A stretch of 64,000 nt of DNA from Ruminococcaceae bacterium R-25. GTDB taxonomy: Bacteria; Bacillota; Clostridia; Saccharofermentanales; Saccharofermentanaceae. Both the position numbers and the translations under genes were made by a program. This document shows positions 6,101 to 61,832 of the stretch, piece after piece (the stretch's first letter is position 1; every line of letters starts with the position of its first letter). Below the pieces are notes generated by a model that did not search any database, was not told the DNA's origin, and saw only the letters and a list, made by a program, of their open reading frames with translations. The DNA lies in assembly GCA_003149065.1 (NCBI GenBank), contig QGFZ01000001.1:868001-932000 (forward strand), written 5' to 3'.

Positions 6101-6340
6101 CGAACGGCAAAATGAACGGCTACAGCCGTTCAAAATACCGTCCAAACACCCTAAAACAGAAGAAACGACGGCAAATCGGACGGCTATAGCCGTTCAAAAT
6201 ACCGCCCAAACACCCTAAAACAGAAGAAACGACGGCAAATCGGACGGCTATAGCCGTTCAAAATACCGCCCAAACATCCCAAAACAGAAAAACGAACGGC
6301 AAAACAGACGGCTAAAGCCGTCCAGATTACCGCCCATAAA
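6101..6340. repeat. four tandem ~64-bp palindromic repeats
   Basis: Units begin at 6101, 6166, 6230 and 6293 (65, 64, 63 and about 47 nt, the last truncated). Each carries a self-complementary core of the form ACGGCTATAGCCGT (variants ACGGCTACAGCCGT, ACGGCTAAAGCCGT), followed by a shared AAAATACCGCCCAAACA-like arm and an AAAACAGAA spacer. The units are nearly identical, so the duplication is recent or the sequence is selected. Short open frames crossing it are read-through artefacts. It directly abuts the left end of the nuclease unit. Confidence 0.9.
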
Positions 6341-6349
6341 AAAAGAAAT

Positions 6350-6426
6350 AGCACCTGCTGTTCTACGCCGTCAAGGGACGTATCCACTCGCCTACCGGCG
6401 CCCTTGACTGCTTGATCGCAGGTGCT
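6350..6426 (-). ncRNA. candidate structured RNA motif, copy 1 (left end)
   Basis: Read on the minus strand: outer stem AGCACCTGC/GCAGGTGCT (6418-6426 with 6350-6358), inner 8-bp stem GTCAAGGG/CCCTTGAC (6401-6408 with 6370-6377), and a 23-nt apical region holding a GCC-GGTA-GGC mini-hairpin and ending ACGT. It lies just after the stop of the nuclease gene and on the same strand, so it would be co-transcribed as its 3' region. The match to copy 2 (7474-7551) with compensatory stem changes is the main evidence that structure matters. Confidence 0.45.
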
Positions 6427-6438
6427 TAAAAGTGTTCA

Positions 6439-6460
6439 AGAGTTGGGTTACCCCAACTCT
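6439..6460. repeat. 22-bp palindrome, left copy
   Basis: Arms AGAGTTGGG and CCCAACTCT around a 4-nt centre, located between the nuclease stop codon and the left structured motif. A near-identical palindrome in inverted orientation lies at 7439-7461 on the other side of the gene. Confidence 0.7.
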
Positions 6461-6475
6461 CATCTAACGATGACT

Positions 6476-7279
6476 TTATGCAGCTTTAGTTTCAGATTTC
6501 CATATAAGAGCACTGTCAGGGATCATGTCATTGAATGCCGACAGCACTTGACTTACAAAGTATTCTTCATCAAAGTTCTGTTTGTCATATAAGATGATGT
6601 AAATTACTTCCCTTCCCGGTCTGTACTTTTCCAAAGAGAACCCATTAATTTTGGTAGCAGTACTAACTGAGTAGTTACCTTTATCATTCATACCCAATAT
6701 CTCGACATAGGAACATCGGTCAATTTCATAAAAGTTGGCCAGATAGTCAGGATTGATCATCTCGTTTATTGAAGGTAGATATACCGATGTCTCATACTTG
6801 AATGGAATTCCCATAAGCTCCAATAAGTCAGCACCCATCTGTTCATTTTTGGACTTGAGTTCACCGTGCTTACTGATAGTTGGCTTGTCTGGTTTGTACT
6901 TACCGCAGCAGCCGGCTTGATTGTTATAGAATGCATTGTCCATGCAGTGTGGATCCGAGAACTGTTTAATTGGGAATATAACTTTTGGCGGAGCAAAACA
7001 ATACATTCTTTTCCAATCATTAAGCAGAGACATGTATTCAGCATGTATCTTCTGAAATTCATTTATCTTATGAGCCAGATCTTGTCCTGTTTTTGTTGTG
7101 ACCCTTACTCTTCGTTGATGTCTACAATTAACCTTAGGGTTACTTGGATCATAATTGATGATAACGTATGATTTACCGTTTCTTTCTTTAAAATAACCGT
7201 GCGGCATCTTCTCAAGCATCAATCTTCTGTACTCCAGCTTAACTGCGTGGACCTTCATGGGATATACGATGTCGTTCAT
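6476..7279 (-). CDS. PD-(D/E)XK-type putative nuclease (paralog of the 60807-61601 gene)
   Basis: 267 aa, no recognised name. The C-terminal half has a restriction-endonuclease-like pattern: SKNEQ (Glu146), GIPFKYE (158-163), NPDYL (Asp178), then YVEILGMNDK (Glu193). The same order SK-x-E / GIP-KYE / PD / YE is seen in the protein encoded at 60807-61601, and both share an N-terminal P-x-G...RN-x-S-Y region, so they are full-length paralogs. A Cys/His cluster (HCMDN, AGCCGKY at about 111-128) might bind metal and is absent from the paralog. The start is supported by AAAGGAG about 10 nt upstream. It is flanked by inverted structured repeats. Nuclease activity is inferred from the motif only; the canonical lysine of ExK is not at its usual place. 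Confidence 0.6.
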   Translation of the reverse strand: MNDIVYPMKVHAVKLEYRRLMLEKMPHGYFKERNGKSYVIINYDPSNPKVNCRHQRRVRVTTKTGQDLAHKINEFQKIHAEYMSLLNDWKRMYCFAPPKVIFPIKQFSDPHCMDNAFYNNQAGCCGKYKPDKPTISKHGELKSKNEQMGADLLELMGIPFKYETSVYLPSINEMINPDYLANFYEIDRCSYVEILGMNDKGNYSVSTATKINGFSLEKYRPGREVIYIILYDKQNFDEEYFVSQVLSAFNDMIPDSALIWKSETKAA

Positions 7280-7438
7280 AAATAACTATCTCCTTTCTAA
7301 ACCGATAATGTCATTATGCATACTTGAAAACGGGTTTTGGGGGTAAGTTGCTCAGAAATGGAAAAAAGGCCTCTGAAATGAGACTTTTTGGCAAAAATTG
7401 AGACTGGTCTCAACTTGTAAAAGTTCCATCGTAAGATG

Positions 7439-7461
7439 AGAGTTGGGGTTACACCAACTCT
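7439..7461. repeat. 23-bp palindrome, right copy
   Basis: Arms AGAGTTGG and CCAACTCT. It is the inverted counterpart of 6439-6460 and is preceded by the same AAGATG block, at the inner edge of the right structured end. Confidence 0.7.
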
Positions 7462-7473
7462 TGACCACTAAAC

Positions 7474-7551
7474 AACACCTTAAATTCTGAGCAGTCAATG
7501 GTGCCGCAAGGCAAGGTTTACCGTCCATTGACGGCGAAGAATTAAGGTGTT
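7474..7551 (+). ncRNA. candidate structured RNA motif, copy 2 (right end)
   Basis: Outer stem AACACCTTAA-ATTC/GAATTAAGGTGTT (7474-7487 with 7539-7551, one bulged A), inner stem GTCAATGG/CCATTGAC (7494-7501 with 7525-7532), and a 23-nt apical region containing GCC-GCAA-GGC, a GNRA-type tetraloop hairpin, and ending CCGT. The apical region is exactly as long as in copy 1 and the stems differ by paired changes. Transcribed rightward it would sit in the leader of the zinc-ribbon gene at 7640. Confidence 0.45.
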
Positions 7552-47945: not shown

Positions 47946-48141
47946 TGTATCGAAAACGCATAAAAACAAAGCGATTTCGATACAAGGTCGCACTTACCTG
48001 TATCGAAAACCTCTCAAAAACACCCCGTTTCGATACAAATTCGCGTTTTTGTATCGAAAACGCATAAAAAACAGGAGTTTTCGATACACGGTCGAACTTG
48101 CTTGTATCGAAAACACAATAAAACAAGCGGTTTTCGATACA
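47946..48141 (+). repeat. array of four 39-nt palindromic units, locus 1
   Basis: Units 47946-47984, 47999-48037, 48050-48088 and 48103-48141. Each is TGTATCGAAAAC, a 15-nt variable A-rich centre, then a partner arm close to GTTTTCGATACA. Spacers are 14, 12 and 14 nt. Total 196 bp. The centres differ but share a CAAAA-CA-like middle on one strand. It lies between the converging argJ and trigger factor genes. Open frames across it are artefacts. The same design recurs at 61637-61832. Confidence 0.92.
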
Positions 48142-60800: not shown

Positions 60801-60816
60801 GGCATATCACCTGAAG
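60778..60816. terminator. terminator-like hairpin overlapping two converging stops
   Basis: CTTCAGGT-ATGCC pairs with GGCAT-ACCTGAAG (3-nt bulge) over the end of the GGDEF-EAL gene and the stop of the nuclease-like gene; CTATTTTCG follows on the plus strand. Confidence 0.5.
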
Positions 60817-61601
60817 CTATTTTCGATCATCTCGGTTACTACTCTTACATCAAGCGGTTGTTTCGCAGATTCAAACGTGTAGAACAATCTGTCACCCTGG
60901 AATATTCCTTCAAACGCATATTTTCTTGATCTGTCTATCATATCCTCAACATAATCCGGGTCACCCATCTTGCCGCAGTGTTCATAGTAAATGATCTGCC
61001 TGTCGCTAAGCCTCAGGATCGTAAAGTCCGGATGGAATATTTCACCGCCCACCAATAGCGGACACTCATATTTATAAGGAATACCATAGTCATAAAGCAT
61101 GTTCGCAATGATCATCTCTGACTTAGATCTGACACGTTCGCCCTTCTTGGTTATATATACCGGCACATCATCAGAAATAGGTTTCTTCTTATATGGTTGA
61201 TTCACCCAGCGTTTTACAAAAGCGTCATCGGATATCATTATGTTTTTAGCAAACATCCTTCGCTCTTCCGGAAGAATGTTATAAATATCTTCTGCAACCG
61301 TCTCAGGATACTTCAAGATCAAATTCTCTAATACTGATTTTTCTTTGCGTGCGGCCTTCAAAACCATTTCAAGGTAACTTTTTTGAACCAGCACCTCTAT
61401 CTCTTCCGGATTCTTTCTGCTTAAAAGCCTTTCTTTCCTGTTTTTCGTTTCACCATAAGCATAGTAATAGGCACTATTATTCCTATGTTTTATTATTAAG
61501 CGGCCTTGTGGCACCCGCGCTAACTTTTCTTCGGTCTTCTTAACAAGATCTGAAATAACTCTGTATCTTTCAGAAAGGCTATTTCGCAAACCATAACTCA
61601 T
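60807..61601 (-). CDS. PD-(D/E)XK-type putative nuclease (paralog of the 6476-7279 gene)
   Basis: 264 aa from the ATG at 61601, chosen because AAGGAG lies 7 nt upstream; a longer frame continues through the repeat array and is not credible. The nuclease-like core is RSKSEMIIANML (Glu162), GIPYKYE (173-179), HPDFTIL (Asp192) and IYYEHCGKMGDPDY (Glu207). N-terminal RN-x-SAYYYAYG resembles the same region in the paralog. Function unknown; members with YEHxG motifs recur as hypothetical proteins in Clostridia. It is 36 nt from the second repeat array and faces away from it. Confidence 0.6.
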   Translation of the reverse strand: MSYGLRNSLSERYRVISDLVKKTEEKLARVPQGRLIIKHRNNSAYYYAYGETKNRKERLLSRKNPEEIEVLVQKSYLEMVLKAARKEKSVLENLILKYPETVAEDIYNILPEERRMFAKNIMISDDAFVKRWVNQPYKKKPISDDVPVYITKKGERVRSKSEMIIANMLYDYGIPYKYECPLLVGGEIFHPDFTILRLSDRQIIYYEHCGKMGDPDYVEDMIDRSRKYAFEGIFQGDRLFYTFESAKQPLDVRVVTEMIENSFR

Positions 61602-61636: not shown

Positions 61637-61832
61637 TGTATCGAAAACCAACAAAAATCATCCATTTTCGATACATCATGACTTTGCAGTGTATCGACAA
61701 CTGCCTAAAACATGCGTTTTTCGAGACAATTTCGCAAATTTGTATCGAAAACACTATCAAACCATTGGTTTTCGATACAGTGTCATCGGCAAGTGTATCG
61801 AAAAACAACCAAACCAGAGTCTTTTCGATACA
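61637..61832 (+). repeat. array of four 39-nt palindromic units, locus 2
   Basis: Units 61637-61675, 61690-61728, 61741-61779 and 61794-61832, each 12-nt arm, 15-nt centre, 12-nt arm (TGTATCGAAAAC ... GTTTTCGATACA with scattered changes; unit 2 has TGTATCGACAAC and TTTTTCGAGACA). Spacers are 14, 12 and 14 nt, total 196 bp, the same geometry as 47946-48141. It fills the divergent region between the nuclease-like gene and the aminotransferase gene. Confidence 0.92.

Follow-up and report, generated by a model that had tools for sequence, protein, structure and literature searches.

The window analysed here, a stretch of 64,000 nucleotides from the 3.07-Mb genome of Ruminococcaceae bacterium R-25 (G000), contains two arrays of long palindromes, one of which adjoins a gene. 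This one, array 2, occupies 61637-61832 and consists of four palindromic units of 39 nt separated by spacers of 14, 12 and 14 nt, which gives exactly 196 bp in total; it lies upstream of an open reading frame, P0001, whose product we describe as a PD-(D/E)XK-like nuclease. Array 1 stands alone between genes that we take to be argJ and tig. The first-pass annotation of this DNA had noticed that the two arrays keep the same geometry despite the drift of their sequences, and this was borne out, both having 39-nt units and 14/12/14 spacers. Their middle spacers are ATTTCGCAAATT and AATTCGCGTTTT, with TTCGC common to both.

Features of the window
6104-6336, no strand: repeats 64 bp apart, palindromic (ACGGC...GCCGT), 3' of the second homologue
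6476-7279, minus strand: second, distant homologue of the nuclease domain, 267 aa (hhalign probability 95.3, E 2.3e-8 versus A1)
47946-48141, no strand: array 1, dispersed (orphan), arm family and geometry as in array 2
60807-61601, minus strand: P0001, PD-(D/E)XK-like nuclease ORF, 264 aa, start 35 bp from array 2
61637-61675, no strand: array 2, unit 1, palindrome of 39 nt with arms TGTATCGAAAA / TTTTCGATACA
61690-61728, no strand: array 2, unit 2, with a single change per arm
61741-61779, no strand: array 2, unit 3, palindromic, 39 nt
61794-61832, no strand: array 2, unit 4, palindromic, 39 nt

A nuclease-like gene beside the array

P0001 matches no Pfam family and no NCBIfam family; among 35 members of its family, Pfam gives a weak DUF790 match in three (best E 0.015) and scattered single matches. 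The protein has a variable N-domain (about residues 1-110) and a conserved nuclease domain (about 150-264), and residues 140-262 match the end of the PADLOC PDC-S68 proteins with E 7e-27. An alignment of 35 relatives has a variable N-terminal third and an invariant C-terminal core formed by S159-K-S-E162, P191-D192, H208 and G210, with E207 near-invariant. The acidic active-site residues of the PD-(D/E)XK superfamily are present, E162 and D192 being invariant and E207 nearly so. The canonical motif-III lysine, (D/E)xK, is absent from the 35 sequences, in which the motif reads E-H-C/L-G, and hence we use the name “PD-(D/E)XK-like”; judging from the alignment, K160 might act as a substitute for this lysine.

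The AlphaFold model of P0001 has a mean pLDDT of 67.5, with blocks of 71-87 from residue 151 on. It predicts an alpha-beta-sheet-alpha-beta core with helices at 160-171, 215-230 and 252-263 and a strand at 239-243, and further strands at 176-178, 182-184, 187-189, 193-196 and 203-209. In fold, residues from about 140 to 264 resemble the Vsr-like homing endonuclease I-Bth0305I (Z 9.1), Bax1 (8.5) and TnsA (8.3), though these VIA values of 8-9 barely exceed the background flagged by the tool. By sequence, P0001 has no match among solved structures, the best PDB match being unrelated (E 0.24). Foldseek ranks a Bax1 complex first, at E 1.4e-3, and has no match at E 0.001 or better, so that the assignment of the C-terminal part of the modelled protein to a nuclease-like alpha/beta core is good, though not beyond doubt. 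For the N-domain, the modelling had no relatives in the alignment to draw on, and its likeness to coiled coils, TasH and prefoldin was taken as a helix artefact.

Linkage of gene and array across the family

At E 1e-5, P0001 gives 376 matches, spread over 82 of the 85 genomes of the genus, with a maximum of 12 per genome and seven in G000. Sixty-eight of the 376 copies were examined, selected from the match list and not at random: 30 returned as loci and 40 picked by hand from listings, minus two without a usable frame (L127, with a frame problem, and L222, with no ORF under the rule used). A strict unit finder recognised arrays in only 35 of the 68, and therefore linkage was scored by the count of inverted 7-mer pairs. 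At least six such pairs on one side of the gene are found in 58 of the 68 copies, upstream in 54 and downstream in four; the controls reached this count in 0/68 for coding sequence and in 1/68 for one shuffle of each upstream stretch. Several of the ten copies below the threshold show a weak array by eye. With a threshold of four pairs, the first 49 copies gave 41 upstream, three coding and six downstream.

Outside the genus the linkage is found in half of the loci scored. In a class-wide search at E 1e-20 the family turns up in 25 of the 391 genomes, and 19 of these do not belong to the genus. From 23 loci submitted for the outside-genus count, four belonged to the genus and L180 had no ORF; nine of the 18 with an ORF have at least six inverted pairs on a side, and one of 18 does in the coding control, with ORFs chosen automatically and the choice for L176 looking wrong.

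The arms themselves vary by gene lineage, examples being TGTATCGAAA, TGTATCGGTA, AATCGGCAAT, TTTACCCCAA, TTTACACCA and ACCGACTAAA. In addition, 25 of the 68 copies have a palindromic box of GAGACYAGTCTCA type no more than 320 nt from the start, for instance upstream of L125, L136 and L115, and the box is also seen at about position 7400 of the window; it may be a regulator site common to these genes.

Arrays across the home genome

A 39-nt pattern with up to three mismatches finds 58 units in G000 and the reversed pattern finds none, which shows that the units are not due to chance. Relatives of the window array occupy 18 other places in this genome, 14 of which hold complete four-unit arrays. 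In the resulting set of 15 complete arrays the spacers are 14-12-14 in 14 cases and 14-13-14 in one, the unit length is 39 nt in 54 of 60 units (38 or 40 nt in the remainder), and the total length is exactly 196 bp in ten. A degenerate fifth unit is found in four of the 15 (L003, L011a, L011b and L015). Four places are shortened: at L001 the middle unit is cut down to 22 nt, L012 has one unit, and L014 holds a one-unit hybrid plus a copy with one unit and a broken one. TTCGC, read on either strand, occurs in 11 of the 15 middle spacers.

A comparison of eight copies over 700 bp of flank showed that seven (L003, L011a, L013, L014a, L014b, L015 and L016) have about 75-110 bp of upstream flank in common, the eighth, L011b, sharing downstream flank instead. 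These shared flanks imply that some of the G000 set spread via copying of a longer stretch; no element ends, terminal repeats or target duplications are visible where the shared flanks of the eight copies end. By longest-ORF calls, the 18 places lie between ten tandem, six convergent and two divergent gene pairs; L007 was miscalled and is really divergent, which corrects the count to nine, six and three.

Private arm populations in related genomes

Arrays with a given arm tend to be confined to one or a few genomes. With one mismatch allowed, the TGTATCGAAA pattern occurs in three of 115 family genomes; G000 has 55 of the units, G067 and G089 have a single one apiece, and the G000 nuclease copy L106 has this arm beside its gene. 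TTTACCCCAA occurs among the 85 genomes in G063 alone, with 18 units, and the nuclease copy L219 carries that arm. All six G063 arrays that were fetched have the pattern 39-14-39-12-39-14-39, the nuclease-linked one with an added fifth unit; by eye, TTCGC occurs in one of the six middle spacers. A seventh place in this genome, known from the match list only, has steps of 51 and 53 among three exact units. TGTATCCCAA, with two units, is confined to G020 among the 85 genomes, where the nuclease copy L112 has the same arm; both are located at the ends of contigs, with 159 of 160 positions identical, so that they may be a single place. G025 has no population units of TGTATCCCAA, though the nuclease there has the same arm.

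TTTACACCA is more widely distributed, in seven of the 85 genomes: 17 units in G000, 12 in G079, six in G064, five in G017 and three each in G009, G071 and G073. Such units adjoin nuclease copies in G000, G079 and G017; the exact arm stands at none of the nuclease copies read in G009, G071 and G073. In G000 it forms a second arm family, in which six of the eight listed pairs consist of two 37-nt units 50 bp apart (exact matches), and one two-unit array is letter-identical between G000 (C2:240721) and G079 (C37:19430). The six G064 units are of a different kind, being near-identical 30-nt palindromes, TTTACACCATAAGAGGCGCTATGGTGTAAA (L255, L262), which are scattered and unlike these arrays.

Beyond these genomes, the exact arm pattern matched 16 scattered single palindromes in GTDB contigs, 15 of which were read as chance, whereas the sixteenth (L054) contains the stretch that is also present at L018 of G067; a search of viral contigs gave no match. 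At L019 of G089, positions 1343-1840 hold a single array with some ten units, for the most part at intervals of 51-52 bp. Its arms begin as the TGTAGAAA type, pass into TGTATCGAAA and then into TATCTAAA, with every unit still roughly palindromic.

Spacing of the units

Of 52 arrays, 38 have a modal repeat distance of 50-53 bp, seven of 73-74 bp, five of 40-42 bp, one of 65 bp and one of 91 bp; other repeats in the flanks account for part of the values at 40-43 and 65 bp. In the main group, units of 34, 36-37, 38, 39 and 42 nt go with spacers of about 17-19, 15-16, 14, 12-14 and 10 nt, so that the spacer offsets the unit length and the period stays near 52 bp. With 10.5 bp per turn, 52 bp would make about five turns and 73.5 bp about seven; L220 and L233 also contain single steps of 64 bp (six turns). 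The concentration of phase is as high for 10.75-11 bp as for 10.5 bp (R 0.87 and 0.86), and whole helical turns are thus a reading of these distances and not a measurement. In a deep branch of the family (L220, L223-L225, L230, L231 and L233) the arrays mostly have 73-74 bp and not 52.

The first-pass annotation had suggested that a multi-subunit structure reads the spacing, and the finding that 45 of 52 arrays with different arms have repeat distances of 50-53 or 73-74 bp supports the view that the spacing is read. It had proposed tabulating the arrays of relatives for the strict 39-14-39-12-39-14-39 pattern, which indeed recurs, with unrelated arms, in the six G063 arrays. The spacer series 14-12-14 is found in only two arm families, other families having 13-13-13, 15-15-15 or 10-10-10. 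The idea of a module with a fixed number of units was not supported, as arrays have two to eight units depending on the family and one to five among the copies in G000. TTCGC as a mark of the middle spacer holds for both arrays of the window, but its incidence in G000 and G063 shows that it is not general.

One could also imagine that the arrays act as transcripts, with hairpins as the active form (antitoxin-like, guide-like or as a sponge); each unit could form a stem of 10-12 bp, and the arms of L019 are complementary inside units while differing between units. Against this, the 91 arm mismatches in 35 arrays comprise 22 G-T, 20 A-C and 49 others, and G-T and A-C being about equally frequent there is no wobble bias and no sign of RNA pairing. 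The period is regular across different arms, Rfam finds nothing but tRNAs in the window, and 41 of the 68 genes have a -10-like box (a loose pattern) 15-75 nt before the start, closer to the gene than arrays mostly are. We regard an RNA-level function as very improbable.

N-terminal domain and arm identity

The comparison of 41 loci (820 pairs) connects the arm with the N-domain. Where N-domain identity is at least 0.75, arms are shared in five of six pairs; where nuclease-domain identity is at least 0.9, in one of seven. The rank correlations with arm likeness are modest throughout (N-domain 0.25, nuclease domain 0.23, linker 0.31, whole protein 0.31). A looser score over 2278 pairs has a mean of 0.85 for three pairs alike only in the N-domain and of 0.32 for ten pairs whose likeness is confined to the nuclease domain, four of which reach 0.4; this score points in the same direction but is noisy, and for four near-identical proteins the rule happens to return 0 or 1.

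Two pairs of loci appear as natural exchanges of domains. Between L227 and L125 the N-domains have a dS of about 1.0, the rest has a dS of 0.01 (one silent change in 91 sites), and the arms differ. Between L112 and L121 the N-domains have a dS of 0.0 (no silent changes in 58 sites), the rest has a dS of 0.64, and the arms are the same. Array and N-domain are adjacent on the DNA, and joint exchange by linkage could therefore mimic specificity. Yet L227 and L125 agree at 105 of 110 positions of the promoter, which lies between the array and the N-domain, and this one comparison speaks against mere linkage, which alone could explain L112 and L121 and explains L227 and L125 less well. We consider it quite likely that the array belongs with the nuclease in a single system, in which the N-domain is the probable reader of the arm.

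Genomic sites and inheritance

The protein tree of the 68 copies tracks genomic site, with 12 changes compared to a shuffled mean of 35.5, 30 of the 68 rows having no named site; the group labelled C_KASA is not clustered (four changes, shuffled mean 3.9), and the other named groups are. At the site of P0001, gene and array are both missing in five close relatives (G079, G073, G067, G016 and G071), and in other relatives the gene is present with a different arm. At the argJ-tig site, which holds an array in G000, six of seven relatives have other repeats by eye and G071 has a short spacer; the repeats of G073, G009 and G082 match no nuclease copy fetched from those genomes. At the prmA-hisS site, also with an array in G000, other repeats are seen by eye in eight of nine readable relatives and none in G026, the comparison covering the relatives readable from the stretch used and so omitting G082, G079 and G073. 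In G067, which is without a close P0001 copy (best E 4e-39), a single place of TGTATCGAAA type survives in decayed form, as would be expected if arrays decay when they lack their enzyme, though this is one case.

The protein might be mainly a DNA-binding regulator or nucleoid component that controls its own gene and loops the chromosome by way of the dispersed arrays, with the nuclease fold being secondary. The operator-like position of the array, upstream in 54 of the 68 copies, fits this, as does the regular spacing of the palindromes, which would suit a cooperative DNA-binding protein. However, at the six convergent places in G000 no neighbouring promoter starts, residues of catalytic type are invariant in the 35 relatives (E162, D192 and H208, with E207 nearly so), and the five close relatives do without gene and array; we therefore think such a role unlikely.

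A role in defence seems to us equally improbable. The nuclease would attack invading DNA, the arrays would serve as self-marks, decoys or brakes, and the change of arms would reflect an arms race with phages; the exchangeable recognition domain and the many copies per genome are indeed reminiscent of restriction systems, and the nuclease domain is common to the candidate defence proteins PDC-S68 (at the E value given above) and to long proteins of viral contigs. The genes around family copies, on the other hand, look like ordinary housekeeping genes when read by eye, and the copies lie at recurring chromosomal sites.

Proposed mechanism

On balance, and by a narrow preference, we favour the reading that a chromosomal nuclease reads its own palindromes via the N-domain and maintains them as a population across the genome. 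The linkage of gene and array, the diversity of arms, the regular spacing, the dispersed copies of the linked arm and the going together of arm and N-domain were computed, and from them we infer binding, stoichiometry, cleavage, copying and spread as follows. A vertically inherited chromosomal nuclease would coexist with private palindrome arrays, one adjoining its gene and the others dispersed in the intergenic DNA of the same genome. The variable N-terminal domain would recognise the arm, a dimer sitting on each palindrome, and since whole helical turns separate neighbouring palindromes in this reading, the protein would bind them all from the same face of the double-stranded DNA. The PD-(D/E)XK-like domain would introduce cuts or nicks in or close to the arrays, and copying repair would homogenise and spread them, as is thought for TnpA-REP and REP repeats. 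Several such nuclease-arm pairs with different arms could operate in one genome.

The family of genes and arrays looks like a so far undescribed DNA-reading system, and limited queries of open-access text found no description of it. More tentatively, and with somewhat less confidence than we place in the mechanism itself, we suggest a new class of genome-resident element found across Clostridia: a nuclease that would read phased arrays through an exchangeable N-domain, with copying of arrays by cut and repair, turnover of recognition from species to species and several independent pairs per genome. Such a system would offer many natural pairs of enzyme and site with changing specificity, and, since the recognised sequence would be readable from the adjoining array, one could learn directly the code by which this uncharacterised family of nucleases recognises DNA. 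It would also be a second case, chemically different from REP/RAYT, of palindrome populations living in bacterial genomes.

Comparison with known systems

Restriction systems with exchangeable target-recognition domains have a variable recognition part that recombines against a conserved catalytic part. The nuclease family is similar in that variable and conserved parts recombine, and differs in that its presumed sites are organised chromosomal arrays.

The nearest working model, by analogy, is REP/TnpA-REP (RAYT; REPtrons), for which published work describes dispersed extragenic palindromes, an adjacent gene for a specific enzyme and co-evolution of enzyme and repeat (PMC8266576, PMC3116915), as well as the persistence of REP/REPIN-type palindrome populations (PMC8049555). 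As there, an intergenic palindrome population is linked to an enzyme gene with which it appears to co-evolve; in REPINs the palindromes stand in inverted pairs. Unlike REP/TnpA-REP, the present system has regularly spaced arrays of two to eight units, several enzyme-arm pairs per genome and an enzyme that is PD-(D/E)XK-like and not HUH/Y1, and thus it is not a member of that group; a search of G000 for RAYT/Y1 gave no PF01797 matches.

CRISPR-Cas arrays have near-identical direct repeats and cas genes; the repeats here are inverted arms, and P0001 matches none of the Cas models in PADLOC. As to the terminal repeats and target duplications of an insertion sequence or classical transposon, the shared flanks of the eight copies compared show no terminal repeats where they end, and at the two orphan sites compared with relatives, the relatives mostly have other repeats. 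With the PDC-S68 candidates, whose models have about 1200-1270 positions, P0001 has the C-terminal nuclease domain in common, but it consists of this domain and its own N-domain only and has an array beside its gene. A search with P0001 alone found no viral relatives; the family alignment found nine (L158-L166), each in a longer protein. In these proteins the nuclease domain is C-terminal and the lengths are 1198-1332 aa in seven, 723 in L160 and 1004 in L161; from their sequences they look like RecD-type helicase-nuclease fusions.

A second homologue in the window

The distant homologue at 6476-7279 has repeats 3' of its gene, at 6104-6336, which probably form its own array. Long inverted repeats lie around it at 6420-6472 and 7427-7480, and repeats containing AACGGC recur, by eye, in relatives (L203 and L209).
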